Positions 287-23,572 of a stretch of 31,055 nucleotides of DNA are shown one piece after another; the first letter of the stretch is position 1, and each line of letters begins with the position of its first letter. Origin of the DNA: a virus; IMG/VR virus record IMGVR_UViG_3300029319_000158, positions 6,965 through 38,019 of that record. One strand, given 5' to 3'. The notes beneath the pieces are model-generated. The model was not told the DNA's origin. It was given only the letters and a program-made list of their open reading frames with translations, and ran no database searches. The translations under genes were made by a program, and so were the position numbers.

Positions 287-1000
287 ATGGTTGAACCGGG
301 CAGCACCGCTCTTGTTGGCGCTGCCATGTGGGGTCAAATGCTCTATCATACATATCGTCCTCGAAAAGTGGGAATATATGGAGCACCAATGGTTGGAAAA
401 ACAACGCTTGACCGATACATGACGACTCCCGGTGAAATGGAAGAAATTGAAGAGCGGACAACACACTCTCGTATTTTAAAATTAGGAAACTATCGAATGC
501 CCAAACCAACGAGAAAAAGAATATCTTGGAATAATGAACGTCGCCTTGTCTTTTCTTCTGATGTTGGGGGAGATACGCGATTTTGGAACTTATGGATTGA
601 GGATATGGTCACTCGTGGTGTTGAAGGAGTTGTCTACATGTTTGATGAGCGTGCGTTCAAAGGTGATGATGGTGGAGAGCAAATAGCAGGTTTTCGTTAC
701 TTAGTAGACAGAGTCATATCCCGTGATTATCGATACCGCTCTTTGTGGTCGAGACTTAAGGGAAGAAAATATCATCCTCGAATAATCATGCTTGTAGCAA
801 ACAAAGCAGATCGTTTCTTTGATGATGCAGCATCGAAGTTATGGAGAGATGGTCGTATTGGTGAGCATAAGATATTTGACCCATTCAGAGATGATTTGAT
901 TAGACTACAAAAAGCGGGTATACCGACAAAGCGCTCTTTCATGGCAACCCGTATTGGTTGGAATGTAGAAAAAACTCTACTGGACCTTCTGACCATTTGA
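287..1000 (+). CDS. Arf/SRPRB-like small GTPase
   Basis: This 237-residue protein carries the ordered motifs of a Ras-superfamily GTPase. The P-loop GAPMVGKT is at residues 32-39, the G3 motif DVGG at 92-95, the G4 guanine-specificity motif NKAD at 172-175, and a G5-like MATRIGWNVEKT lies near the C-terminus. The DVGG context followed by an aromatic residue resembles the Arf/Sar/SRPRB branch. The position after DVGG, normally the catalytic Gln in Arf proteins, is Asp96 here, so intrinsic hydrolysis may be weak or use another residue. The N-terminus (residues 6-20) is rather hydrophobic. The gene starts one base after the membrane-peptide gene and precedes an AbrB-like gene. Known members of this superfamily control membrane traffic or polarity. 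The role in a virus is unknown, and an MglA-like GTPase is the alternative reading. Confidence 0.8.
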   Translation: MVEPGSTALVGAAMWGQMLYHTYRPRKVGIYGAPMVGKTTLDRYMTTPGEMEEIEERTTHSRILKLGNYRMPKPTRKRISWNNERRLVFSSDVGGDTRFWNLWIEDMVTRGVEGVVYMFDERAFKGDDGGEQIAGFRYLVDRVISRDYRYRSLWSRLKGRKYHPRIIMLVANKADRFFDDAASKLWRDGRIGEHKIFDPFRDDLIRLQKAGIPTKRSFMATRIGWNVEKTLLDLLTI

Positions 1001-2132: not shown

Positions 2133-2765
2133 ATGTTTAACTTCGGCCAACAACCTCAACCTTCGGGTACACTCAATCTTTCAGCAACTGGAGCGCCTGT
2201 TGCTTCCCAGCAGTCACTTGGTTTTACTCAACAAATGCAACAAAATCCTATGATGGGTGGGATGATGACTGGAATGGGTATTACTCCACAACAACAGCAA
2301 TTTATGCAACAACCTGTCACGCCTCCGAGTGAAATGGAAATACTTAATGCACTTTTGAATTCACAAAATCCTATTCATCGCTTCATAAAAGATGGTGGGT
2401 TAAACACCTTGGTTGAAATTATTGCAGCAACAACAAGTCTTACGCTTCTAAATATTTTGAAAGAGGCAACTTTTGCGATTGACGAAGATGAGGGTGGGAT
2501 GAAATTAGATGCATCTTCTCTTCCTGAAAATCTTAAGACATTAAGCGCAGAAAATGTTACAGTGCTATTGAACAATATGATGGCTGTAAGCACACAAACT
2601 GTCCAACAGGCTGAAATGCAACGTCAACAAATCATAGCAACATCTCAACAATCCATGATGGGAGGCGCACTTCAAGCAGCGCTTGCAGATGAAGGGATGA
2701 TGGAAAAGGTTGGTGGGGGCATTGGAAGTGTCGCTCGCTCCTTTATGGGACTACCAAAACAGTGA
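2133..2765 (+). CDS. Gln/Met-rich helical protein, function unknown
   Basis: A 210-residue protein with no family I can name. Residues 1-65 are low complexity (Gln, Met, Gly, Pro), with runs such as MMGGMMTGMG and PQQQQFMQQP. The rest looks helical, including a hydrophobic stretch around LVEIIAATTSLTLLNILKEA. GGAGGTGA at 2121-2128 is a strong ribosome binding site four bases before the ATG, and the start immediately follows the previous stop. Disordered Gln/Met-rich tails are common in virion-associated proteins, but function is not shown. The downstream two-helix membrane protein overlaps its stop codon. Confidence 0.6.
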   Translation: MFNFGQQPQPSGTLNLSATGAPVASQQSLGFTQQMQQNPMMGGMMTGMGITPQQQQFMQQPVTPPSEMEILNALLNSQNPIHRFIKDGGLNTLVEIIAATTSLTLLNILKEATFAIDEDEGGMKLDASSLPENLKTLSAENVTVLLNNMMAVSTQTVQQAEMQRQQIIATSQQSMMGGALQAALADEGMMEKVGGGIGSVARSFMGLPKQ

Positions 2766-3028
2766 TTGAAATGATGCCTACACCAAGAGATGCAATTGAA
2801 ATCCCCATGAGGGGATTAACCGCCTCCAGTATTGATGTATTTTCTCCACCAAGATCGGTAATTGCTGATATGATAATGGTTCAATTCATTAGTATGATTG
2901 TTACATTTATGGCCCTTCTTCTCTTCAAAGGTCAAGACCTTTCTTCAACTGATGTCAGTCTCGCTTTGATTGGTGTTATGGGTGCAAGCCTGATGTTAAG
3001 CACCCTTTACTCAAGACTCACTCGCTAA
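2762..3028 (+). CDS. Two-helix small membrane protein (holin-like topology)
   Basis: This 88-residue protein has two hydrophobic segments, about MVQFISMIVTFMALLLF and VSLALIGVMGASLMLSTLY, separated by a short polar loop (KGQDLSSTD). It has a roughly 35-residue N-terminal region and a short basic end (SRLTR). Two spans in under 100 residues is the shape of many phage holins, but many other small membrane proteins look alike and no lysin gene is in the window. A GTG start overlaps the upstream stop (GTGA); ATG codons at 2771 and 2774 are alternatives. It is convergent with the - strand gene and overlaps its 3' end by 18 bases. T-rich sequence just after the stop (3033-3042) could serve as an archaeal-type terminator. 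Confidence 0.55.
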   Translation: MIEMMPTPRDAIEIPMRGLTASSIDVFSPPRSVIADMIMVQFISMIVTFMALLLFKGQDLSSTDVSLALIGVMGASLMLSTLYSRLTR

Positions 3029-3247
3029 CCATTTTCCTTTTGGACAATCCATGCTGGGTAATGCTGCTTTAATACTCATGGAACATCCACATGCTCTGCA
3101 CATCTTAATTCGTTTTATTAGATAAGGACATTCATCACAAATCGATAGACGTGTAGCATATTCTTTCTTTGTTACACGCCTCTTTTTTACAACATCTGAG
3201 GTCGCCTTTACAATCTCACGCGGTATGCGTTGCAAACGTCGAGGCAT
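3011..3247 (-). CDS. Small Cys-rich zinc-binding protein ending in CPKGKW, marine phage type
   Basis: This is the only - strand gene, 78 residues. A basic N-terminus (MPRRLQRIPREIV) is followed by EYATRLSICDECPY and a cysteine cluster. The cysteines are C37-x2-C40, C50-x2-C53 with C55 beside it, and C68 in CPKGKW. This arrangement of two CxxC pairs and a C-terminal CPxGKW is familiar from small uncharacterised proteins of marine phages. It is predicted to bind one or two zinc ions; function is not known. It overlaps the 3' end of the convergent membrane-protein gene and is transcribed away from the 3306 gene, so it must have its own promoter, probably in 3248-3305. Its orientation suggests different timing from the structural operon. 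Confidence 0.7.
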   Translation of the reverse strand: MPRRLQRIPREIVKATSDVVKKRRVTKKEYATRLSICDECPYLIKRIKMCRACGCSMSIKAALPSMDCPKGKWLASES

Positions 3248-3989: not shown

Positions 3990-4396
3990 AATCTGTACCC
4001 ATACCTCATCTTCTATGCAAATCTCATCCCGGTTATAGTATCATAATTTCACGAGATTATGGTCTTCTTTTAGAAAAACAAATACCAACTGTTCTTGATT
4101 ATGCTAGATGCTTAACGGATAGTTTTAGTCACTATGGTGATTTTGAGATTGCACCCATAGGTATGTTTAGTATTTTATGTCAATCATTTCAAACTCTTCT
4201 TGAGTCAGATGAACCCGAAGATGTTCTTCCAGCAAGGACATCACTAAAATCAGCACTTCATCATTTGAACGATACCTTTGTTAAAATGAGTCGTGCGTTT
4301 CCACTTGATTCTAAAGTTCGTCAATTGTATGCTGATGTATCCCAATCCCTATACGCTTACGCGGACTCGCTTGTAAATGCCGGGTGTGAAACATGA
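3986..4396 (+). CDS. Unknown 136-residue helical protein
   Basis: No recognised family. The gene begins with GTG overlapping the upstream stop (GTGA) and ends in an ATGA overlap with the next gene, so translation is probably coupled on both sides. The N-terminus contains LLCKSHPGYSIIISRDYG, whose KSHP core recurs in two other proteins of this window (13137-14351 and 17666-23572). The remainder is mostly helix-forming, with SFQTLLES and a C-terminal VRQLYADVSQSLYAYADSLV. It has no membrane segment and no metal motif. Its position between candidate small terminase and large head proteins suggests an assembly or virion role. Confidence 0.55.
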   Translation: MKSVPIPHLLCKSHPGYSIIISRDYGLLLEKQIPTVLDYARCLTDSFSHYGDFEIAPIGMFSILCQSFQTLLESDEPEDVLPARTSLKSALHHLNDTFVKMSRAFPLDSKVRQLYADVSQSLYAYADSLVNAGCET

Positions 4397-6639
4397 CTGA
4401 GGGAATGATGGGTCGCGGGTCTGACACTCGCATGTATAACCCTCGTTCAGAATCCTCTCATATGTTCCGTGAAAATCACGAAGAAGAGGGCACGCGCACT
4501 GGTTATGAAGATCCTCGTGACCTTGATAATCGTGCTGATAAACGTCAGGCTAAGAAAGAAAAGGAAGAAAAAGAAGAGAAGAAAATAAAACATATCAAAG
4601 TTCGTCGTCACCATCTCCATTCTGGGCAAGATGAAATGGACGAAGAAGAGTCACCCATGGAAAATTCTGAATACAAACCTCGTGGTTCTGTAGATAATCC
4701 GTCCAAGCAAACAATACCATCTGGTGCTGGTGGGTTTCTAACCAGTCTTGCTACACAAGCAAAAGGTCCGGGCGCTGCTGCTGGACAGTTGGTTGCAATG
4801 AGTGAACCGATGTTAGATGCTTGGTCTGAGTTGTTGAAACAAGATAGGCGTATCCCCGATGTAACTGATGAGTATGATTACTATAACTACTATGATACTT
4901 ATGCAGATGAAGACCGACCTTTAGCACATATGCCTCATTCTACTCTTGATGCAAGATTAGCAGAAAGGGGTGAGGTTGGTGAATATGCTCATGATAACGA
5001 TGATGAATTTGATGAGTTAATACATGAGTATCTTATGAGAGACAGGGAAAATCGAAGTGGGGTTGACCGTGAAGGTTTTCCACAAGAGTTTCAAGACATT
5101 CACACAAGCGAACCAATGGAAAACGCTTGGTCTGAGTTGTTGAAATCTAAACCAAAGGGACTGCCTCAAGGGGTTCCTCACGCTTCTGATACAGGAAAAA
5201 GTAAGAGAGAAAGGGATAGAGACACACAATCTGATATTGCTCGAAGAAAAAGAAATCCAGTAAAAGTTATGCGAAACCCTGTTCAATCAGCGTTAACAAC
5301 TGGGCAGCATAATAGAATGCAAACCGCGTTGGAATTATTGGAGCAATATGGCTCTGCTGACAGAATACCTCCAAAAATTTTAGCCCAACGTCTTCCTGAA
5401 TTTCTAAGAACTACAGCCACTAGAAAAAGAAAACCCTCTGTAGGTAGGAAACCCTTTGAGGGGGAGAGAGTTTATGGCGGTGAAGGGATAAAACAAAGAG
5501 ATGCTCAAAAGTATATTAGACCATTAGCACCTGCACAAAGAGAGGCAATTACTGGTGGAGAGTACCACGATAGTCTGCTCGATGCATTGAATACTGGACA
5601 ATTTATGTCTGAACTTTCGACATTTGCTGAGAACGCACCTGCTTATGATAGAAGGATAGAGGAAGCAAGGAGAGCATCACTTCCCCCTGAACCTACTCTT
5701 GAGCCTCAACCTGTTCAAAAAGATAAGATTGAACCCGGTCCTTTACCAGATACCTTCTTTGTTAATGGAGACTTTATGGATGCTCGCCAGTTCGCTGCAT
5801 ATCAGGCTCAAAAGAATCAACAGCAAAAAAGCGAACCGATGGACCATGCTTGGTCTGAGTTGTTAAAGTCCAAGAAAGAAGAAAGAAAAAGAAAGAAGGA
5901 AGAAGGTGCAAAGTTTCGACCATCTACAGGTGCATTTGAGCGACCAAGGGGTGGATTCGGTGGTAGGCCAGCAACTCCTGCTCGTGCTAAAATCATTAGT
6001 CGAAATCTCCCCGTTGGGAGACACACTGGATTAAACTTAGCAGATCTTGCTGTTGAGATGTCTCACCGTGGTGTCGCATCCAAGCAACCAATGTCCAAAG
6101 ATCCTCAACAATATCGTGACTACATGGCTACCCAAGAGGCTCAAAAGCGTGTTGGGAATGTTCGCACTCCTTATGCTGAACATCGTCGTTTTGGACGCCC
6201 ATCAAGGCGTGCTAAATCTGGTATGCCCCGTGTACCTCGACCTCGTCTTCATCCAGTTCGTGCTCCAAGCATAGTGCCACCTAAGATGAAAATGCCTCGT
6301 CTTCGCAAACCTAAGATGCCGGGCATGGTGACAATGAGTGAAGATGAAATAACTCAATCAGATGTTCTAAAATCTGCAAGTGATGCTGGATATCTCCGTA
6401 TTCTAGTGCGTGAATTACGTGAAGCACTTCGTGAAACTCGTGATAAAGATAGAAAGCGAAAGGGAATGGGAACCCCTGATACTTCGGGCGCTGCCTCTAA
6501 TCTCCCCAACCATCCATCCAATTCTCATGCTCAAACGAGCACTCCACAAGGGGGGACAGAAAACGAGGAAGCAGAGGCTAAAATGTATGGGGCTGACCCA
6601 GCGCAAGTCATCAACGCTCGTGGGAGCAATAAGTCATGA
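4393..6639 (+). CDS. Large low-complexity protein with three EPMxxAWSELLK repeats
   Basis: This 748-residue protein is mostly charged and probably disordered. Residues 50-75 are Lys/Glu-rich, and there is an acidic Tyr/Asp patch near residue 160 (DEYDYYNYYDTYADED). The clearest feature is the peptide SEPMxxAWSELLK, found three times at residues 137-149, 239-251 and 480-492. A partial match, ESPMENSEY, lies near residue 80. The AW core also occurs in four other proteins here. The C-terminal quarter is basic (PPKMKMPRLRKPKMPGM) and may contact DNA. The gene sits between small proteins and a second giant with short overlaps on both sides. Repeated short motifs in a disordered chain suggest a multivalent scaffold or tether. 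I know no homologue. Confidence 0.6.
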   Translation: MTEGMMGRGSDTRMYNPRSESSHMFRENHEEEGTRTGYEDPRDLDNRADKRQAKKEKEEKEEKKIKHIKVRRHHLHSGQDEMDEEESPMENSEYKPRGSVDNPSKQTIPSGAGGFLTSLATQAKGPGAAAGQLVAMSEPMLDAWSELLKQDRRIPDVTDEYDYYNYYDTYADEDRPLAHMPHSTLDARLAERGEVGEYAHDNDDEFDELIHEYLMRDRENRSGVDREGFPQEFQDIHTSEPMENAWSELLKSKPKGLPQGVPHASDTGKSKRERDRDTQSDIARRKRNPVKVMRNPVQSALTTGQHNRMQTALELLEQYGSADRIPPKILAQRLPEFLRTTATRKRKPSVGRKPFEGERVYGGEGIKQRDAQKYIRPLAPAQREAITGGEYHDSLLDALNTGQFMSELSTFAENAPAYDRRIEEARRASLPPEPTLEPQPVQKDKIEPGPLPDTFFVNGDFMDARQFAAYQAQKNQQQKSEPMDHAWSELLKSKKEERKRKKEEGAKFRPSTGAFERPRGGFGGRPATPARAKIISRNLPVGRHTGLNLADLAVEMSHRGVASKQPMSKDPQQYRDYMATQEAQKRVGNVRTPYAEHRRFGRPSRRAKSGMPRVPRPRLHPVRAPSIVPPKMKMPRLRKPKMPGMVTMSEDEITQSDVLKSASDAGYLRILVRELREALRETRDKDRKRKGMGTPDTSGAASNLPNHPSNSHAQTSTPQGGTENEEAEAKMYGADPAQVINARGSNKS
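4801..4839 (+). repeat. AWSELLK motif, copy 1
   Basis: Encodes SEPMLDAWSELLK. The core GCTTGGTCTGAGTTGTT (17 bases) is identical in all three copies inside this gene. Confidence 0.85.
5107..5145 (+). repeat. AWSELLK motif, copy 2
   Basis: Encodes SEPMENAWSELLK, followed by SK. It shares the 17-base core with copies 1 and 3; the two variable residues are EN here. Confidence 0.85.
5830..5868 (+). repeat. AWSELLK motif, copy 3
   Basis: Encodes SEPMDHAWSELLK, followed by SKKEERKRKKEE. The same 17-base core is present, then Leu and Lys codons change (TTA AAG), showing the peptide is kept despite synonymous drift. Confidence 0.85.
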
Positions 6640-8966
6640 TAATCGCTTTTCCTTACGTTCGCCCACGTCCTCAATTTATCTTAAGAAAAGGACATGGCAT
6701 CATAAGAAAGGGCGATGGAGTTTACGCACATTTACCGGGTCAAGGTTCAGGACATCTTCTTCGCGCTCCACCTCCTGAAGCATTTAACGCCGACCCAAAT
6801 GAGCCTGACGCACCTGCATTTGCACACATGGGTTCAGCGAAACCTCATCCAAAATCAGAGGCTGAGGGACACAATGGTGTTGGTGAATTACTCAACATGA
6901 CTCGAAGAGAAGGGGATTACGGGCATACTGAATTTGTCCATCAATTTGACGGTAAAGAGTACCTACATCATCATGGAATAGATGCAATTATCAAAGGCGT
7001 AGGAGAACTTATGAAAAAATTAGGTCTTTCCGAGGCTGAGGCTAAGGACCCTAAAACAGGAGCGAAGGCGCGTGTGCAACAAGCAATTGACAAATTCAAT
7101 GCTCGTGAAGATTTAGATCCTAGACATCAATTACCAAATGTGGATAGCGTAGAGTGGAGAAAATTAGTTGCTGCTCCTTATCATAAAAATTATGCAAACC
7201 AAACAAAAACCAAAGATGGAAGGCAAGTAACTCTATTTACAAACACGGGGTTTGAGAATAGTCCCGCCGGTCTTCATATTGAATCCTATGCAAATCATTT
7301 TCACAAAGAGTTGGGTGAAGTTCTAGCAGACGCTTTAAAATTAAACGGATATCTTCCAGCAAGCGCACCAGAGTGGGTACAATATCCTTACATGGCTCCC
7401 GGTAAAAAAAATAATCTCCTTCATCCCTCTCTTTATCGTTTTAAGGGAGAGCAATTCGGTGAAGGGGTTGGTCCGGGTGGTACAACAGCGAGAGCGCATG
7501 AAGGCTCTTTCCCCGAAGGTGCTCAAATGGAAGCATCCGTGAAAGATGTTTATTCTTGGGAAATGCTCCATCATTTACCTAATGCATTCTTTTACAAAAA
7601 AATGGGAAAGGGTCGCCCTCCTTCTAGGGCAATAGAGTTGGCTAAACAACATATGTTAGAAGCGTTTAGCCGTTTCGATCCTGATAAGATTCCTGATATT
7701 CAAGTACCAATCAATACAACCCTTACTCAAGAACAACAACAAGGCACTGCTTCTGGGAATTATTCTATGATGAGTCTTAAACAAGTTCTTTCAAGTCCTG
7801 AATTACTTCACAATATGGTTAGTGAATTAGCGGCAACTCCTGCGTTTACCTTTATGTTTGGAAGAATTGATGCCAAGAACTCTGCTGGCGCGGATTTGTA
7901 TCAATATCTAATGGATGAATATGGGTCTCCCGAAGAAGGACTGGATTACGCACAAATGAGTAAACACGTAACTCATGGCCCACATGTTGTGTTACCTGAT
8001 GGTACTAAATTACACGAACACTCTCATGCAAATGCGGCTAAATTGATGACTAAGTTGATGCTTGGTGGTATTGATGAAGACGGTATTGCTAATATTCGTA
8101 ATGCTATTCTTGAAAATCCAGCAGATTTCCGTCTTAATCCTGAATCGGGAGATGAAAATTTAGAGTATCGACGCACTGCTCTACAAGGTCTTGCTGATTT
8201 AATAGCCGGTGGTTTTGGACATCAGGTTCAACGAACATTACCCGAAGATATTCCCACTCAACCTTTGTATTCACGAAACGTCGCTGGATATTCAGAAACA
8301 CCAGTTCACAACCTTCCTTCTCACATGTTCCATCATACTGATGAACATATGCTCCCAACAAGAATGAAGGGAAGTGGAGAGCCTATTCGTGAAGAAGGCG
8401 CTCCTGCTGTACAACCACCTGAGTCACCTGCTCTTCAAACACAGACTCCACGTCAAGGTAAAGTTGCTGTGCAACGACCGTTTACACCTCAAAGTGAAGG
8501 TTTAATGCAAGAAAGAGCACAAATAGGACAACTTGGAACTCCTGAGTTACGTGAGGTCATGGGACGAATGGGCGTTCCCATTCCTGCTGGCACTGGTCCT
8601 ACTCTTACACCACAGGAACAGCAATTCCAACAGACGTTTGGAGACCCGCGCCAACAATTGCTTTCGCAGTATCTTCGTAGTTTAGATGAGTCATTACCAA
8701 TCGGCGATCGTTTGATGAAGGCAATGGAAGAAATGCAAAAAGACGAGGCACGTATGGATACTTCGATAATCAAGCATATTCCAGTAAGAAGTGTACATAT
8801 CAATGATGACAACGGTGTAAATGTTATTGCAAAGAAATTAGGTCTTACATCTCTTGATGTTAGAACCATTGCTCACAGCACTGGAGATTGGGGTAGAGTT
8901 TCTAAGCAACTCAACGTGCCTCTTGATGTAATTAAAGTAGTCAAAGTAAGTATGGGGGGAATCTAA
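6636..8966 (+). CDS. Large putative virion/assembly protein, unknown family
   Basis: This 776-residue protein overlaps the previous gene by four bases (ATGA). It has no family I can name. The first 100 residues are His/Gly/Pro-rich (GHGIIRKGDGVYAHLPGQG). Residues about 110-400 look like a folded alpha/beta region, with VYSWEMLHHLPNAFFYKKMG near residue 310 resembling the SWEEVH motif found elsewhere in the window. The stretch around residues 580-690 is Pro/Gln-rich and probably disordered. The C-terminal 60 residues look like a compact helical domain of HTH type (VIAKKLGLTSLDVRTIAHSTG). Style and His-rich composition resemble the 1968-residue protein further down. It is followed directly by the 353-residue gene. 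It is probably a minor or internal head protein, by position only. Confidence 0.55.
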   Translation: MIIAFPYVRPRPQFILRKGHGIIRKGDGVYAHLPGQGSGHLLRAPPPEAFNADPNEPDAPAFAHMGSAKPHPKSEAEGHNGVGELLNMTRREGDYGHTEFVHQFDGKEYLHHHGIDAIIKGVGELMKKLGLSEAEAKDPKTGAKARVQQAIDKFNAREDLDPRHQLPNVDSVEWRKLVAAPYHKNYANQTKTKDGRQVTLFTNTGFENSPAGLHIESYANHFHKELGEVLADALKLNGYLPASAPEWVQYPYMAPGKKNNLLHPSLYRFKGEQFGEGVGPGGTTARAHEGSFPEGAQMEASVKDVYSWEMLHHLPNAFFYKKMGKGRPPSRAIELAKQHMLEAFSRFDPDKIPDIQVPINTTLTQEQQQGTASGNYSMMSLKQVLSSPELLHNMVSELAATPAFTFMFGRIDAKNSAGADLYQYLMDEYGSPEEGLDYAQMSKHVTHGPHVVLPDGTKLHEHSHANAAKLMTKLMLGGIDEDGIANIRNAILENPADFRLNPESGDENLEYRRTALQGLADLIAGGFGHQVQRTLPEDIPTQPLYSRNVAGYSETPVHNLPSHMFHHTDEHMLPTRMKGSGEPIREEGAPAVQPPESPALQTQTPRQGKVAVQRPFTPQSEGLMQERAQIGQLGTPELREVMGRMGVPIPAGTGPTLTPQEQQFQQTFGDPRQQLLSQYLRSLDESLPIGDRLMKAMEEMQKDEARMDTSIIKHIPVRSVHINDDNGVNVIAKKLGLTSLDVRTIAHSTGDWGRVSKQLNVPLDVIKVVKVSMGGI

Positions 8967-11501: not shown

Positions 11502-11986
11502 AGGAAAAGAAGTTAGGTGGTAAAAAACACGGCATGGTTGTTGTTATCTCTCTTGGTAAACCGGGAGGTAAGAAACCTGAGCGAGAAGCCGATCCTGATA
11601 CAAAAAAGAAATCAGACTATGAAGAAGCGATAGAGGCAATTATCAAAGGAGAGCCTGTTGATTTCTGTGACTGTTGTAGTCCCAGTGAACTTGCTTGGGC
11701 TGTTATGAAAGCAAAAAAGAAGTCCAAGCCATTTCATGGATACAATCCAAAGCGCCATCATAGGAAAGGTGGATTAAGTGCAAAAGGACGTGCTAAGTTC
11801 AAGCGTGAGACAGGTGCTAACTTGAAACCTCCTGTAACCACCAAACCAAGTAAACTCAAACCCGGCTCTAAGAAAGCCAAACGTCGTAAATCATTCTGTG
11901 CTCGTATGGGTGGTATGAAAGGACCAACATCAAAGAAAGGTAAATTGACCCCCAAGGGTGCAGCGCTAAAGAGGTGGAACTGTTGA
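11498..11986 (+). CDS. Small basic Cys-containing phage protein (SFCARMGGMKG type) with AW motif
   Basis: A roughly 162-residue, Lys-rich protein. The C-terminal half has a pattern I recognise from marine phage proteins: GLSAKGRAKFKRETGANLKP, then RRKSFCARMGGMKGP and a final ALKRWNC. The N-terminal part has a CDCC cluster followed by SELAWAVMKAKKK, one copy of the AW motif at 11693-11698. The start is taken at the ATG overlapping the terminase stop (ATGA); an in-frame ATG at 11486 would add four residues. Strong positive charge suggests DNA or nucleic-acid contact, possibly inside the head. Biochemical function is unknown for the family as far as I know. Confidence 0.7.
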   Translation: MKEKKLGGKKHGMVVVISLGKPGGKKPEREADPDTKKKSDYEEAIEAIIKGEPVDFCDCCSPSELAWAVMKAKKKSKPFHGYNPKRHHRKGGLSAKGRAKFKRETGANLKPPVTTKPSKLKPGSKKAKRRKSFCARMGGMKGPTSKKGKLTPKGAALKRWNC

Positions 11987-13136: not shown

Positions 13137-14351
13137 ATGTGGGGGTCAGCGCTTATTGAGCAAGCCTCAGAGTTACCCACACAACAGGTGGTTAAATCAC
13201 ATCCTATGTTGAAGCAATTATTCAACAACGGAGATGGATGGTTTGAGTCTCGCATGGGTTGCGGAGCAGATGAACTTGTAAAGCGCCTTCGTAAAATGCG
13301 CCGTTCCATGAAAGATGATAGAAGTGATATTGATGCTTTTATAGATGATATACGGATGATAAAGGCACTTGAAACTGAGGCAACAATCATGAGTCTTTCT
13401 TGGGGTCCTAAATATGCAGATGTCATGAAGCAACTGGGGTTAAGTGATAGAAGTCTCAAAAGTCTACGTAAGTTTGGGGAGAGTCGATCTGTATCTCTTC
13501 AACAGGCTTGTAATCTTTGGAATGAGGCAGATGCTGCTCTAAAAATGCTTGATGAGTTTGAAGATGTTTGGGGAGAAGAAGAGCAACGAGCATGGGCTAG
13601 TGCTATGAGTACTAGAAGTGATGCGAGAAAGATGTGGAAAAACACATTACATCAAATCGACGCACTAAGTAAATCCGATCAAGATTATCTACGATTTGCG
13701 GCAGAGCAACTTCTTGAAAAAGGCCCCATGCGTTCAACTGATATTAGAAGAAATCTACATGACGCTGGATTAATGAAGAAGTCATTTACAGACAAAAAAT
13801 TATCTTCCTTACTAAATCTATATGGAGAAGAAGTGGACATCATCAAAGGTGCTTCACGCGGTACTTATGTTGTCCTCGACTCTCAAGGACTTGTTCTTAA
13901 AGATCCATGGGCTTACAGTGCTGGGTTCCTTGACGCTGATGGATATATTACGATTACCGAGAGAGGGGAGCCGAGGGCTGGTTTTATCGCTACTGGAGAT
14001 AGGGGCCGTCTGCATTGTGAAAATCTTCATAAGACTTTAGAATGTGGAGTATTACAATTAGACAATAAAGTGTACAAAGATTCTCAACGAAGTCAACACC
14101 GTTTGCAATTTTATTCAAAAGCGGACATCCGCAAACTCCTAACGGGGGTGCTACCTCACATACGTATGAAAGATGTCCAAGCCAAGGCGGTTTTGGCATT
14201 CATTGATGAAAAAGATATACAAAGAAAAGAAGAGATGAAGCGCCTTGTCCGATATGAAAATTGGAAGGATAATACCAAGAAGACTCAAGAACTTTTACAA
14301 GGATGGGGTATAGATATGGATACAATTGGTAAATACGCGGAGGGTCTATGA
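13137..14351 (+). CDS. Helical/winged-helix protein fused to a LAGLIDADG endonuclease domain
   Basis: This 404-residue protein has three parts. Residues 1-190 are helical and unknown, and include VVKSHPMLKQLF (KSHP at 20-23). Residues about 190-247 look like a winged helix (EKGPMRSTDIRRNLHDAGLM). From residue about 255 there is a single LAGLIDADG-type motif, AGFLDADGYI at 262-271. Asp268 is the predicted metal-binding catalytic residue. It is followed by the usual helix-strand pattern down to about residue 365. Single-motif proteins of this family act as homodimers. Two GAGGTCA repeats (13114-13120, 13126-13132) lie before the start, the second serving as ribosome binding site. The gene is in frame and integrated between the terminase cassette and portal, so it may be a freestanding homing nuclease or a domain recruited for packaging. 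Confidence 0.75.
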   Translation: MWGSALIEQASELPTQQVVKSHPMLKQLFNNGDGWFESRMGCGADELVKRLRKMRRSMKDDRSDIDAFIDDIRMIKALETEATIMSLSWGPKYADVMKQLGLSDRSLKSLRKFGESRSVSLQQACNLWNEADAALKMLDEFEDVWGEEEQRAWASAMSTRSDARKMWKNTLHQIDALSKSDQDYLRFAAEQLLEKGPMRSTDIRRNLHDAGLMKKSFTDKKLSSLLNLYGEEVDIIKGASRGTYVVLDSQGLVLKDPWAYSAGFLDADGYITITERGEPRAGFIATGDRGRLHCENLHKTLECGVLQLDNKVYKDSQRSQHRLQFYSKADIRKLLTGVLPHIRMKDVQAKAVLAFIDEKDIQRKEEMKRLVRYENWKDNTKKTQELLQGWGIDMDTIGKYAEGL

Positions 14352-17665: not shown

Positions 17666-20600
17666 GTGGAAGCAGACGCATTTGACGAATACCTTCGTAC
17701 TCGGCATAATTTGTTGAAGTCAGTTGTTGACGGATTGGATTATGATAATGCTGTTGCTGACCATTTTTTCTCTTCCTTAAATCTTCATCGTCAAGGCGAA
17801 GATGACTTCGTAAAGTCATGGGAAGACAATGTTTGTGACATGATTCTTAGAGGCGAATGGACACAAGGAATGTCTGATATCATCACTAAAAATGTAGATA
17901 AATTATCTTCACTAAACAGACAAAGTGAGATAATGCATGATTTAGACCATCCTTGGCGTGGTAGAATTAGAGATCTTCCCTCTGCCTTAGATATGTTTTC
18001 AGAAGAGATTGAGTTAGGTCCTCCGGGGCCTGATGGTTACTACCCAGTGCATCACCCACATGACAATATGCATCATGCAATGAAGAGAATGAATTCTGTA
18101 ACTGGTCGTCCTTATTGGGTAGAGGCATTGAGAAGTTTTTACTTACCTAGTACGCCGGGTGGAATGAGTCAATCTCAACTGCATGAAATAGTAGAAAGAG
18201 CACAGGATAAATATGACAAAGCGGAAAGGAATCCAATTGTCATAGGAACTGGATTCAAACCTTCAAAAAATGAACTCAAGGAAATAAAAGATGAATTTAG
18301 TGCGATGTTAAGTGAAAGAGATGAAAGTGGAGAGCCTTCACAAAACGCTCTTAGATTACAATTTGAAATTCAAGGGATTATGGATAAAGATAAAAATATA
18401 AATCAAGCACAGGCTCTTGACCAACTTGTAAACACAGAGGCTACTGAAAGAAATATATCTTCATCCGACACAAGACACAGTCATTTAGGACCTCACAATG
18501 ACGTTCATTCTCATACACTTTACATAAGAGATTTTGAGAGATGGAAGGCTGAAAATCAGGAATTAGTAAGTGAAATAAAATCATCTTTACCTCCACCACG
18601 AGACGAGTTTGAATTACAAAAAAGACACTTTGAGGCTCGTGCTGATGATTGGCTTAGTGATGATGCTCATGATGAGCCTTACACTGTAAATACAGATGGA
18701 GAAGAATCTGATGATATTTATGCTAATCCAGAAACATGGGGGGAGGATAAACCTGCTTCTGTATCTTACCAATTAAGAAAGCGTTTGAATTACAACGGCT
18801 ATAGACACGGAATGGAATGGCTTACGCCTCTTGAAAGAGCAAAAGTTGCCGACCATTTACATCAACATGGAACAGGGAAAGGCGATAAACAAATGATAGA
18901 TCTTGGTGATGGATTCAAAACATCTATTGGGAGAATAAATCGTGACTATGCACAAAGAGTCGCTCATGAAATTCATCATTATATGAGAGGGCAAAATTTT
19001 CACGGCCCTAATCTAAACAATCATGTAGAGGGCACTCATGACCATCCTCAAGCAGAAAAAGCAGCAGATGAGACAGCATACTTGGATGCACTAAAAGATG
19101 TAAAACACTCTTCTGGTTCATCGATGTACGATTTTATTCTTGGTGAATTGAATAATAATCTTGGAATAGAACAACTATCTGAACAGACTTTCCAAACTGC
19201 TATGGACGATTGGACGGCGGATAGAATGGAGGATTTGGATTATGAAAACAACCCACCGCCTATCGCAGATGATTATAGAGTGAAGGAGTTACCTCATATA
19301 CCAAATATAAAGCGTGGATTCAAAACAAAAGTGCAAAGACGAATGGAAAGAGAAGGAGTGTCTTATCAACAAGCATTAATGGAGGAACTTAGAGAATCTC
19401 ATAATGTAATCGATAGCGAGACCAATGAGGTAAGTGAAGGCCCTCATAAATTAACTCGTAGTAAGTTGCTCGATCTTGTTGGATTAAATGAAGAACTAGG
19501 CGCAAAAGATCCAACTGAACTATATCATTCTGATGAACCTATGATTACAGCAGATGAAATGATGCTAATTGATGAAATGGCGAAAGAAAAAGGAGATAAG
19601 GCTAGATTACACAAACTCATTAGGGGGTCTCATCGAAGACATAGCACTGGATTTAACGGACCACGTAAGGAAGATTTACCAGAGCGAGAGCGTAATTTGT
19701 TTATTGAAAATAAGGAAACAGGCGAACTTATGGGTCTTGGTTTTCCCTTTGCTACTGAGTTTCAAATCAACGGAGGACATGGAAGATCGATTAGTTCTCT
19801 CATTCATTTCTTACACTCACCTTTACCAAAAATGGGGGAAGATGAAGAATCTATTATTGGAACTGAATTGGAGGACTCTTTACAATTTACCGTGAACCCA
19901 ATGACTGAGGGTTTGTATGGAATGTTTTCTGCGCTTGTTCATGATAAAATATTACCGAGAGATGTAAGACCCGGAGAAATTATTTCTGGTTTTGATGTTT
20001 CTACACCCAGAGGATTTAGGGAAGGAAAAGCGACTAGACCTCCGCTTAACCCAAAAAATAATTACACAGACCACGCTACTTCTTTTGCCGCTCCTTCCGC
20101 CATGGACGTTAAGGGTAAAGGTGAAGAAGAAAGGAAAGAGATGTTCCAAGGCAATTCAAATAAATTTGCAAATTTAATAAGTAGCGCTACGGGGCTTGGC
20201 TCAAATCCAAAATCTACCTCATCGGCAAGAACAGTCTTACCTAAAAGCAATCAAAAATCAAGAGTCGCTAGACGACACGCCACTATTTTTGGAAGAATGA
20301 GACCACCACATGACCCTCAAGAAGCCATGAGATTGACCATGGCTCAACTAAGAACTGGTCGCCATCCGTTTGGACATATAGTAGATGCACCTCGTGATTT
20401 CTTTGGATATCAGGGTAGAGTAAAACCGGATGAAGGTGAGGACTTGGTTGATTTCTCAGAGAAAACTATGTTTGGTGGTTTTGACGCACCCATGGGAGAA
20501 ACTAATTATGACGATCTTCACTTACATCTTGAAGAAACAGTTAGTCTAAAACAAGAATTAGAAGAGCGTTTAGAAGAACAGAAGCAAACGGGTGAGGTTG

Positions 20601-23572
20601 ATAAAAAAATTGTTGACCAAATTTCAGACGCAGAAGAAGAAATAGATAGTGTAACTAATCTTTTACTAGAGGCTGAAAAACAAACATATTCAGATGAACC
20701 TGTACATCAAATGAGTCTTGAAAACAAAGAAAATATGGACACTAAAGATGACCAAGATAATATCGCGCACATCGAAATGGCTCGTCGTTTAATAGATATG
20801 ATTCCCTCTGAGCAAGTTCCAAATCCCCAAGAAAACCCTGCTGCTTTTTGGGCTTTAACTTCAAGAGCACTGAGAGATGCTGGGAGAATGCTTCGTATAC
20901 TTCCGCCTCAAGAGGGAATTACTACTCACTCTTATCGGCACACAAAAGGACAGGCTTTGACCAGTAGTCAATTGTCTGATGATGGGGTTTTCGATCCTCA
21001 TCAGTTGTTAGGTAATACTGTGAAACAATTGGGTCAAGAAGTATTACCGTCTTCTGATGTAGAAGATGTTTTAGAATCCCTTGGTCTACCGAATGATGCA
21101 CCTCATGTCAATATGATAGAGCGTTTGATTGAAAGCATTGACCGTCCAGTGCGAGTCATGAAAAATGCTGATATTCTAAATTCTTCGGTAGCAACTGGTG
21201 TTGAGTTTCATCCACCGGATATGCGTATTCGTGATGAGAATAGGGAACTAATTCGTCCTGATTATTCGCTTCATGGTGGACAATACGTGGATGACCATCA
21301 TGGTGCTTTGAAAGAATTTACAGGCGGTCAAAAAGGTAGAATTAAGGATAGGGCAAAGGAATTACAATCGCGATTTGAACTACCCTTACGTTATATTACT
21401 CAAAAACTTATGAGAGAAAAATCAGGAGCAGTAGAAAGAAATAACCTTTCACACATACCCCTTTCGCCAATTGATATGCAGCAAAGAAACATGACTGTGT
21501 TTGGTAATGGGAAAAGAGGGACTTCGGCAAATCCTAATATTAAAGGTGTAAAAAATAGAATTAAATCTTTGATGCACGATCTTATTGTAAGTCATGGAGA
21601 CTTAGAAGAGGGACAAGTCTCTCAGGGACAGGAGATACTTTCTGCTGGATGGGGTTCTGTTCCAGTTGGTCCTGCTACATCTTCCAGATATCATACTGTT
21701 CAAGACTTGTATGGCGCATCTTCTGCTATGGATTTTGGTTATGAAGGACAATCACCATTTGGTTGGGAGTATGAAAACGGTAAACCAGTAATTGGAACTT
21801 TCACCCAACCTGAAACTTATCATAGTATTCCTAATGAAACAATGAGGGCTATTTGGCAAGACCCTCGTTTTTCAAATCTTGCTGAATCATACATTTCATC
21901 GGATTGGCAACCTACTTCTACTGTAAACAATCAAAATCGTGTTAACGAAATGGGTCAAACCGCTCATCAAGATGCAATGCTAAAGACTGATGATTTGGCT
22001 ATTATGTTAAATCCTGACCTATTATTGAAAGAAGATGAGGCACGACCTCCACCATTGCTACCAATGCATCGCCTCTTTTCTCTAAAAGACTTAGAAGCAT
22101 TCCGTGGATTTACTGGTGACTGGGTTGTTTCTGCATACCCCGAAGGTAAGAGGTTGATAATTACAAGGGACGGAGATAGTATTTCAGCATATGATTCTAA
22201 TGCAGAGGATGTAAGTGTAAGCGGTACTTCGCAGCAACATCTCAAGAAACTTACAGAGAAAGACTTTGTTGTAGATGCAATAAAACGTGGCAAGAGTCTG
22301 TATATTTTTGACATTCTTTCTTATGATGGTACTAACATTAGTGATTTATCAGTTCCTGAAAGACTCAAGGTTCTACGTGGACAGTTTGATAGTTACGAAA
22401 CTGCACACATACCAGCACCTGACGATACTGTTGTGACAGATGAGGGTGGTCTGGAAGGAGCGGTTGAGCGATTAAAGGAAGAGCACCCTCGACTTTTGCT
22501 AAGGGATGGTAAATCAACTTACATGAAAGGTGAGCGCCGTCATCCAAAGTGGTTTATGCTTCGTAAAAACAAGGACATAGCACTCATTATTCTTGATGTT
22601 CGTGGTAAGGGTCCTTTCACTTATCGTCTTGGTGCGGGTCCTGTGGATGAAGACGATCTTGGAAATCGAGGTGTTGAACATGAAGGGGCTACGTATCTTG
22701 ACGTTGGCACTGTAAAAAGTCCAAAACCGTTTGAAGAAGGGGACATCGTACGGGTATCTGTATCAGGAGTTAAGGCGAAAAGAAGAGGGGAGAAGACAAT
22801 TTATGATGTAACTCCTAATACTATACGCGCCGCTAGTGATGTAGAAAGTCCAGCCAGTTTAGAGTCCCTTGGTCTTCTTGCTAAGTCTCATCCAATTATA
22901 CCAGTAAAGTATGATTTGAGTATAGTTGACGATGTGCTCACAGTATCTTTTGATGGAATTGATGATGTACTATACAAGATGGAGAAAACAAGAAATGGAT
23001 ATTGGGCACATAGTCCTAAAGGTGCGCTTTCTCCTTTAATGAATACAGATTATCCTATATTGTTAGCGGAAAGTATGCGTCCTATTTGGCACGATGTTGC
23101 TTCTGTGCTCATTAGTAAGAAGTTAGAACGACTCGATTTGGATGTTCTTGAACATCGCGCTGAAAAACCAGAAGCGGGTAAAGTTCGTAGTATGACTAAC
23201 CCTAAACATCGTGAAGCATCTGAAAAAGAGTCTGCTGGTGTTATTGAAGAAGATGATGATGACAATATTCTCAAACCTGAAAAACAAAAGAAAATGTTAG
23301 ACATGTTATCACGTATCACTGATTTAACTGAGCGAATAAAGAAAGAAAAGATGACTGGTCGAGTAAGCGCTCAGGGTCTTGGTATTGACGTTGGGGCACA
23401 AATAGAGTCTCCAAGGGGGCCTACTGAACTAAGAAGTGAACAATCTATGCCTGATTGGGATATGTTGGAGCGCCCTACAGAAGATCCTGAGAACGAATAC
23501 CCACAAGCGCGTAAGAAAAGAAGAATGTTGGAGCAGTCTGGTGAAAATCAAATTGAGATGCGGGAGGACTAA
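17666..23572 (+). CDS. Giant multidomain protein with zincin-like motif and degenerate DNA-ligase fold
   Basis: This 1968-residue protein starts at GTG after GGTGAGGT. Recognisable parts in order are: a helical His-rich N-terminus; H434-E-I-H-H438 in VAHEIHHYM with E464/E469 in EKAADETAY, a gluzincin-like zinc-protease pattern; a long unassigned middle; a coiled coil near residues 950-1010 (LKQELEERLEEQKQ); and a ligase-like region from about 1460 to 1735. The ligase region has motif I as Y1491-P-E-G-K-R (the catalytic Lys position is Tyr), motif III F1548-D-I-L with D1554-G, motif IV E1597-G-A-V, motif V near W1629, and an OB-like part (EEGDIVRVSVSGVKAKRRGE). Adenylylation looks impossible, so binding without catalysis is likely. 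KSHP is at 1740-1743. Placement before the protease suggests an internal or injected virion protein. Confidence 0.65.
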   Translation: MEADAFDEYLRTRHNLLKSVVDGLDYDNAVADHFFSSLNLHRQGEDDFVKSWEDNVCDMILRGEWTQGMSDIITKNVDKLSSLNRQSEIMHDLDHPWRGRIRDLPSALDMFSEEIELGPPGPDGYYPVHHPHDNMHHAMKRMNSVTGRPYWVEALRSFYLPSTPGGMSQSQLHEIVERAQDKYDKAERNPIVIGTGFKPSKNELKEIKDEFSAMLSERDESGEPSQNALRLQFEIQGIMDKDKNINQAQALDQLVNTEATERNISSSDTRHSHLGPHNDVHSHTLYIRDFERWKAENQELVSEIKSSLPPPRDEFELQKRHFEARADDWLSDDAHDEPYTVNTDGEESDDIYANPETWGEDKPASVSYQLRKRLNYNGYRHGMEWLTPLERAKVADHLHQHGTGKGDKQMIDLGDGFKTSIGRINRDYAQRVAHEIHHYMRGQNFHGPNLNNHVEGTHDHPQAEKAADETAYLDALKDVKHSSGSSMYDFILGELNNNLGIEQLSEQTFQTAMDDWTADRMEDLDYENNPPPIADDYRVKELPHIPNIKRGFKTKVQRRMEREGVSYQQALMEELRESHNVIDSETNEVSEGPHKLTRSKLLDLVGLNEELGAKDPTELYHSDEPMITADEMMLIDEMAKEKGDKARLHKLIRGSHRRHSTGFNGPRKEDLPERERNLFIENKETGELMGLGFPFATEFQINGGHGRSISSLIHFLHSPLPKMGEDEESIIGTELEDSLQFTVNPMTEGLYGMFSALVHDKILPRDVRPGEIISGFDVSTPRGFREGKATRPPLNPKNNYTDHATSFAAPSAMDVKGKGEEERKEMFQGNSNKFANLISSATGLGSNPKSTSSARTVLPKSNQKSRVARRHATIFGRMRPPHDPQEAMRLTMAQLRTGRHPFGHIVDAPRDFFGYQGRVKPDEGEDLVDFSEKTMFGGFDAPMGETNYDDLHLHLEETVSLKQELEERLEEQKQTGEVDKKIVDQISDAEEEIDSVTNLLLEAEKQTYSDEPVHQMSLENKENMDTKDDQDNIAHIEMARRLIDMIPSEQVPNPQENPAAFWALTSRALRDAGRMLRILPPQEGITTHSYRHTKGQALTSSQLSDDGVFDPHQLLGNTVKQLGQEVLPSSDVEDVLESLGLPNDAPHVNMIERLIESIDRPVRVMKNADILNSSVATGVEFHPPDMRIRDENRELIRPDYSLHGGQYVDDHHGALKEFTGGQKGRIKDRAKELQSRFELPLRYITQKLMREKSGAVERNNLSHIPLSPIDMQQRNMTVFGNGKRGTSANPNIKGVKNRIKSLMHDLIVSHGDLEEGQVSQGQEILSAGWGSVPVGPATSSRYHTVQDLYGASSAMDFGYEGQSPFGWEYENGKPVIGTFTQPETYHSIPNETMRAIWQDPRFSNLAESYISSDWQPTSTVNNQNRVNEMGQTAHQDAMLKTDDLAIMLNPDLLLKEDEARPPPLLPMHRLFSLKDLEAFRGFTGDWVVSAYPEGKRLIITRDGDSISAYDSNAEDVSVSGTSQQHLKKLTEKDFVVDAIKRGKSLYIFDILSYDGTNISDLSVPERLKVLRGQFDSYETAHIPAPDDTVVTDEGGLEGAVERLKEEHPRLLLRDGKSTYMKGERRHPKWFMLRKNKDIALIILDVRGKGPFTYRLGAGPVDEDDLGNRGVEHEGATYLDVGTVKSPKPFEEGDIVRVSVSGVKAKRRGEKTIYDVTPNTIRAASDVESPASLESLGLLAKSHPIIPVKYDLSIVDDVLTVSFDGIDDVLYKMEKTRNGYWAHSPKGALSPLMNTDYPILLAESMRPIWHDVASVLISKKLERLDLDVLEHRAEKPEAGKVRSMTNPKHREASEKESAGVIEEDDDDNILKPEKQKKMLDMLSRITDLTERIKKEKMTGRVSAQGLGIDVGAQIESPRGPTELRSEQSMPDWDMLERPTEDPENEYPQARKKRRMLEQSGENQIEMRED

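Follow-up and report, generated by a model that had tools for sequence, protein, structure and literature searches.

An Arf-like small GTPase in a conserved gene block of marine tailed viruses, probably of archaea

Introduction

Arf is a molecular switch best known for its part in the membrane traffic of complex cells, and Arf-type switches are regarded as a eukaryotic and Asgard speciality for this purpose. Members of the Arf/Arl/Sar1 family (PF00025, including the Asgard ArfR proteins) carry a GxxxxGKTT P-loop, an NKxD motif, and an N-terminal helix before the G domain, all three of which are shared by the viral GTPase described here. The DxGGQ motif of Arf/Arl/Sar1 is also the norm of the viral family, although the protein in our window differs by Asp96. 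These proteins give both the best structural Z-scores and the closest cellular relatives that we found, whereas extra residues, a separate clade, a very long branch, and a sub-cut-off Pfam score set the viral GTPase apart from them. Virus-encoded small GTPases of the Ras superfamily include the Rab/Ras GTPases of giant viruses (BFVD); unlike the GTPase described here, these are named Rab, Ras, or Ran, belong to eukaryotic viruses, and share 9–20% identity with it, the viruses and hosts being unrelated.

With regard to the viruses themselves, the comparison is with the Magrovirales, whose family Apasviridae is described by the ICTV as having genomes of about 108 kb, a family B DNA polymerase (PolB), a position near the Druskaviridae, and Poseidoniales hosts (PMC12999244). 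A GTPase is mentioned neither in that description nor in the profiles, and no report of a small GTPase in archaeal tailed viruses was found in the literature covered, which takes in part of the main magrovirus literature. The window analyzed here is a stretch of 31,055 nucleotides, positions 6965–38019 of a 38,019-base virus record (L141).

The GTPase Gene, Its Motifs, and Predicted Fold

The GTPase gene and its motifs lie in the window as follows:

287–1000, + strand: Arf-like small GTPase, 237 a.a., ATG start; N-terminal hydrophobic helix at residues 5–23, then the G domain
380–406, + strand: G1 P-loop, G32APMVGKTT40; G32, G37, K38, T39, and T40 invariant in 24 aligned relatives
458–460, + strand: candidate G2 threonine T58, in the invariant pair R57T58, 20 residues past the P-loop lysine K38, in a low-confidence region of the model
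560–574, + strand: G3, D92-V-G-G-D96, with Asp at the catalytic Gln position
800–811, + strand: G4, N172-K-A-D175, invariant
944–949, + strand: G5, A220-T221, invariant

The G1 (GxxxxGK[ST]), G3 (DxxG), and G4 ([NT]KxD) motifs occur in this order, which is the pattern that defines the small GTPases of the Ras superfamily (TRAFAC), and the preliminary description of this DNA, which had read a complete set of small-GTPase motifs in the ORF, is borne out by both the motifs and the predicted fold. Given that G32, G37-K38-T39-T40, T58, D92, G94, G95, N172-K-A-D175, A220, and T221 are invariant across the 24 aligned relatives, the motif set is far beyond chance. The A220-T221 pair is of the 'AT' type, as is the G5 of Arf1. 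The GTPase evolves under strong purifying selection (dN/dS = 0.01–0.07), and its predicted N-terminal helix (residues 5–23) is hydrophobic and weakly amphipathic (mean moment about 0.2).

An AlphaFold2 model based on 24 sequences (mean pLDDT 69, which is moderate; pTM 0.73; switch I poorly predicted) consists of the N-terminal helix followed by strands and helices in the complete small-GTPase order, and the predicted fold is that of a complete G domain. Using Foldseek, the model matched 922 PDB chains at E ≤ 0.001, and every chain listed belongs to a small GTPase, to G-alpha, or to a complex that contains one of these. The best structural match was Arl8b (Z 14.9 over 162 residues, 2.7 Å), followed by Arl10B (Z 14.8), the Asgard protein GerdArfR1 (14.7), LokiRagO (14.7), Arf6 (14.6), Arl1 (14.2), HodArfR1 (14.2), and Sar1 (14.0), with the Rab and Ras proteins (Z ≤ 12.9) behind the Arl8/ArfR/Rag/Arf6/Sar1 range of 14.0–14.9. 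Arf and Rag are tied as the nearest fold within 1 Z unit, and the Rag/Gtr protein LokiRagO (8yl2) shares the G-domain topology; however, there is no room for the Rag C-terminal domain in the 237 a.a. of the viral GTPase. No MglA or SRPRB chain was among the 50 fold matches listed, which leaves both subfamilies possible. The SRPRB profile gave no match in Pfam scans of the GTPase family, and the membrane span sits in a separate gene.

The Gene Block Around the GTPase

The GTPase gene is flanked by the following genes:

1–20, + strand: TM205, last bases; membrane protein with a long charged tail; the rest lies at about 6341–6964 of the record and holds 4 undetermined bases, and the end is inferred from the reading frame
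31–285, + strand: TM84, 84-a.a. single-span membrane peptide; span at about residues 35–53; helix-like C-terminal segment
1036–1206, + strand: AbrB/MazE-type DNA-binding protein, 56 a.a.; Pfam MazE_antitoxin at 22.4 bits, just below the 24.7 cut-off
1203–2132, + strand: g309, conserved soluble protein with CPEHxH
2133–2765, + strand: g210, with a Gln/Met-rich N-terminus and a conserved C-terminal half
2762–3028, + strand: TM88, small membrane protein with two predicted spans

The order TM205-TM84-GTPase-g309-g210-TM88 is fixed in essentially all of 135 loci, with the GTPase, g309, and g210 present in every one, TM88 in 134, TM84 in 133, and TM205 in 131. Where TM84 is missing (2 of the 135), the contig begins inside or at the GTPase. 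Across the 135 loci, the interval between the TM84 stop and the GTPase start is mostly −8 to +12 nt. It had been noted earlier that a single-span membrane peptide directly precedes the GTPase, and this peptide is TM84, whose one predicted span and stop 1 nt before the GTPase start are as described; the pair is kept in every relative with upstream sequence, and its absence from relatives, which had been named as an outcome that would tell against the description, did not occur. With g309 as the anchor (80 loci), the GTPase, TM84, and TM205 were absent in 4, 6, and 6 loci, respectively, only where the contig begins beside the block. Seven of nine further long contigs carry the GTPase; in the other two, reached through the capsid gene, its expected place, about 25 kb upstream, falls beyond the contig end. 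The virus group has two main branches, and the 56-a.a. AbrB/MazE-type gene is confined to one of them.

Across the family, TM84 has one predicted span and TM88 mostly two, and TM205 has a single clear span and a further hydrophobic stretch that stays under the threshold. The N-terminal segment of TM84 is conserved, reading MG(R/K/W)(I/L)FKTPSDD(S/A)(T/V)E.TLRA.H..NT.D..YE. The model of g309 is of low confidence (pTM 0.47) and gave no fold match, and so no partner function is derived for this protein. Adjoining the block, a small Cys-rich protein (DUF6171/phrog_13558; 3011–3247, − strand) is encoded on the reverse strand of an otherwise forward array, a position kept in most relatives.

Relatives and Rarity of the Family

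Scanning viral contigs with the GTPase gave 52 relatives (51–81% identity), and a profile scan found relatives on at least 215 viral contigs, several of them 102–108 kb in length. From the 215 relatives of the profile scan 80 were kept, and 96 distinct proteins entered the count at residue 96 given below. A scan of genome contigs, which reaches close relatives only, yielded three GTDB contigs (L054, L055, and L056) from MAGs labelled Asgard, Maricaulis, and Cytophagaceae. A cellular origin through these contigs was rejected, as the viral gene order around the GTPase marks them as mis-binned virus contigs; they could mislead searches for cellular homologues.

The window GTPase, an Asgard Arf, and an Asgard Ras had no match as queries against 50,697 annotated phage records, nor did a second member of the viral GTPase family, and the same records held no match to g309 or TM205. 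The rarity of Ras-superfamily GTPases in tailed viruses, as earlier stated, agrees with this result and with the best BFVD fold matches, which are Rab/Ras proteins of giant viruses. The family lies below Pfam/NCBIfam cut-offs and is without a significant match in PHROGs, for which reason its members probably bear the annotation 'hypothetical protein'.

The Virus and Its Host

The six-gene block lies upstream of the terminase gene and runs in the same direction as the genes for terminase, portal, protease, and HK97-type capsid protein. The capsid protein is nearest to those of Druskaviridae, with 32–33% identity over 98% of its length to the HVTV-1/HCTV capsid proteins. A family B DNA polymerase (DNA_pol_B) is encoded on each of nine related contigs of 102–108 kb, which thus show the Magrovirales trait of a 90–110 kb genome with PolB. 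Compared with the published description of magroviruses, these are probably magrovirus-type viruses with archaeal hosts, sharing with the Magrovirales/Apasviridae the size class, the family B DNA polymerase, tailed-virus head genes, and the relation to Druskaviridae. No archaeal PCNA was found in the nine long contigs, an absence which leaves the host undecided.

A Putative GTP Switch at the Membrane

Genes for small membrane proteins always lie on either side of the GTPase, an arrangement suggestive of a GTP switch that the viruses themselves operate at the host membrane, and with three membrane-protein genes adjacent, an action of the GTPase on that membrane is plausible. The preliminary description had inferred an action on host membrane or cell-division machinery, and no finding speaks for or against the second of these. 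We see about an even chance that this Arf-type GTP switch is a core gene of marine, probably archaeal viruses that works with TM205, TM84, TM88, g309, and g210 at the membrane late in infection. The protein would bind GTP and cycle, through hydrolysis, between GDP and GTP forms, and in its GTP form would use the N-terminal helix and the switch regions to dock on the membrane itself, on the conserved part of TM84 outside the membrane, or on the tail of TM205, the latter two being its putative partners. Once docked, the GTPase would organize its g309/g210 partners late in infection, when the block is presumably expressed, and the purpose may be, as a guess, remodeling of the host membrane for assembly or exit. 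Counted against a membrane switch are that adjacency in a virion-gene operon can reflect timing alone, that the N-terminal helix is only weakly amphipathic, that model confidence is moderate, and that g309 and g210 are without a known fold.

A farther-reaching form of this proposal, in which a new, virus-only Arf-like subfamily runs a GTP-controlled membrane-remodeling or exit machine (GTPase, TM84, TM205, TM88, g309, and g210) in abundant archaeal viruses, seems to us somewhat unlikely; if true, viruses would possess a counterpart of Arf/Sar1 coat recruitment beyond eukaryotes and giant viruses. A conserved Arf-like branch in ocean viruses, beside membrane proteins of their own, would be a new setting for the Arf switch. 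The GTPase block would also give access to an unanswered question, the way in which tailed viruses of archaea cope with the host membrane.

The strongest rival to a membrane switch is a soluble GTPase of morphogenesis that assembles or packages virions, e.g., with g309 and g210, its membrane genes being incidental neighbors through shared late expression. The location of the block, upstream of and co-directional with the terminase, portal, protease, and capsid genes, fits this, as does the universality of g309 and g210, which equals that of the GTPase. However, the block contains three membrane-protein genes, TM84 adjoins the GTPase wherever upstream sequence exists, and the lack of Arf-/Ras-type GTPases in phage records implies that assembly does not generally need one; we therefore consider a soluble assembly role rather improbable.

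Relation to Arf and Other Cellular GTPases

No profile of Pfam, PHROGs, or NCBIfam matched the window GTPase at curated cut-offs. The family consensus reached 11.0 bits against Pfam Arf (PF00025; cut-off 22.3), with the best single member at E 0.047, and was also under the cut-offs of Roc (20.4 of 27), small_GTP (15.5 of 42.5), and MMR_HSR1; the Gtr1_RagA profile gave E 0.09 at best, with single members only. When the viral family profile was searched against 148 Asgard genomes, the best cellular matches had E 1e-6 to 2e-5 as counted per genome, and three of these matches that were tested are Arf-family proteins, well above the Pfam Arf cut-off. Two of the three carry DLGGQEDFWSLW and DLGGQRDFWNLW, resembling the viral DIGGQERFWNLW, with the shared pattern DxGGQxDFWxLW. 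Asgard Arf proteins outscored Ras proteins with the viral HMM, and in profile comparisons with the viral family the Asgard Arf set reached 98.1% (E 1e-13) and the Ras set 97.0% (E 1e-10), the closest set being at 98.7% (E 2e-16).

A phylogeny had been proposed as a check, and a maximum-likelihood tree was computed with Arf-like and Ras proteins. The viral GTPases form a single clade (100/100), whose stem, 3.5 changes per site in length, joins the Arf-like proteins L183–L185 (91/80) outside the Ras clade (100/99); the join is unsure because the branches are long. The distance from the P-loop to DxGG is 54 in the viral proteins versus about 37–44, and that from the P-loop to NKxD is about 135 versus about 98, with two insertions, one of ~15 extra residues between the P-loop and DxGG and another of ~20 more before NKAD. 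Owing to the sub-cut-off score, the very long branch, and the two insertions, we call the GTPase Arf-like on sequence grounds, a putative new and divergent subfamily that stands outside the Arf family in its Pfam definition. In this sense, the earlier designation as an Arf-like small GTPase of a tailed virus stands, with fold, motifs, and nearest cellular relatives in agreement.

That archaeal Arf-family proteins are the closest cellular relatives identified, and that small GTPases are typically switch proteins, would also suit a captured archaeal Arf-like GTPase which competes with or replaces a host GTPase in envelope growth, polarity, or division. Such a host-mimicking regulator is unlikely: with about 3.5 changes per site on the viral branch, and with the two insertions, the protein shows no evident imitation of a host surface.

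Residue 96 and GTP Hydrolysis

The preliminary description had placed Asp96 at the usual catalytic Gln position, and the residue is indeed present in the window; it recurs in three contigs of the window's own clade that are 90–92% identical to the window (L059–L061), and a second, separate Gln-to-Asp change occurs in L087 (73% identical). At residue 96, the 96 distinct GTPase proteins have Gln in 81 cases, Glu in 9, Asp in 5, and His in 1; D92 and G94 are the same in all of them. As judged from these alignments, Asp96 is a real, recurrent, and local variant and not the family norm, and the ancestral residue was most simply Gln. This variation (Q/E/D/H) makes the classical hydrolysis mechanism uncertain for some members.

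The same description had raised the idea of a GTP-locked switch, with Asp in place of the catalytic Gln, and the five proteins with Asp (the window, its three close relatives, and L087) are what speaks for it. As a property of the whole system it is not supported, Gln being the usual residue of the family and Asp having arisen locally. An acidic residue here, as also in the nine members with Glu, need not abolish hydrolysis (Ras Q61E is said to hydrolyze GTP faster), and the Asp96 clade (dN/dS = 0.034–0.036) evolves under constraint equal to that of the rest of the family; we thus consider a locked switch very unlikely.

That the protein is no GTPase at all, but a packaging-linked or other P-loop ATPase (AAA_18 weakly matches the P-loop only, at E 0.21, and a terminase gene lies nearby), is extremely improbable and was rejected in view of the invariant NKAD guanine-specificity motif, DxGG, and the complete predicted G-domain fold, so that the packaging-linked placement named beforehand as contrary to the description did not occur.

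Other Features of the Window Virus

Between the portal and head protease genes lies an ORF of 1968 a.a. (17666–23572), in which a stretch close to the C-terminus weakly matches an ATP-dependent DNA ligase domain (22.4 bits, cut-off 26.2); in the matching region, HVTV-1 carries a gene of comparable size under the annotation 'zeta toxin'. The ORF at 13137–14351, between terminase and portal, shows similarity to an HNH-endonuclease family (phrog_5046). Upstream of the window, an HMG-CoA-lyase-like gene (HMGL-like; Pfam 76.7 bits, cut-off 29) at L141:3176–4006 is a possible auxiliary metabolic gene.

Finally, a short peptide motif of the type MSAFDxAWxLLK/SEPMDxAWSELLK is repeated, either at the N-terminus or internally, in many ORFs of the window virus that are unrelated to each other. 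There are 8 strict matches versus 0.02 expected from shuffled residues, located at 11693, 12327, and 27889 of the window and at five sites before the window in L141, and several longer AWSELLK variants occur in the ORF at 4393–6639. The motif could be a virion or scaffold targeting tag.
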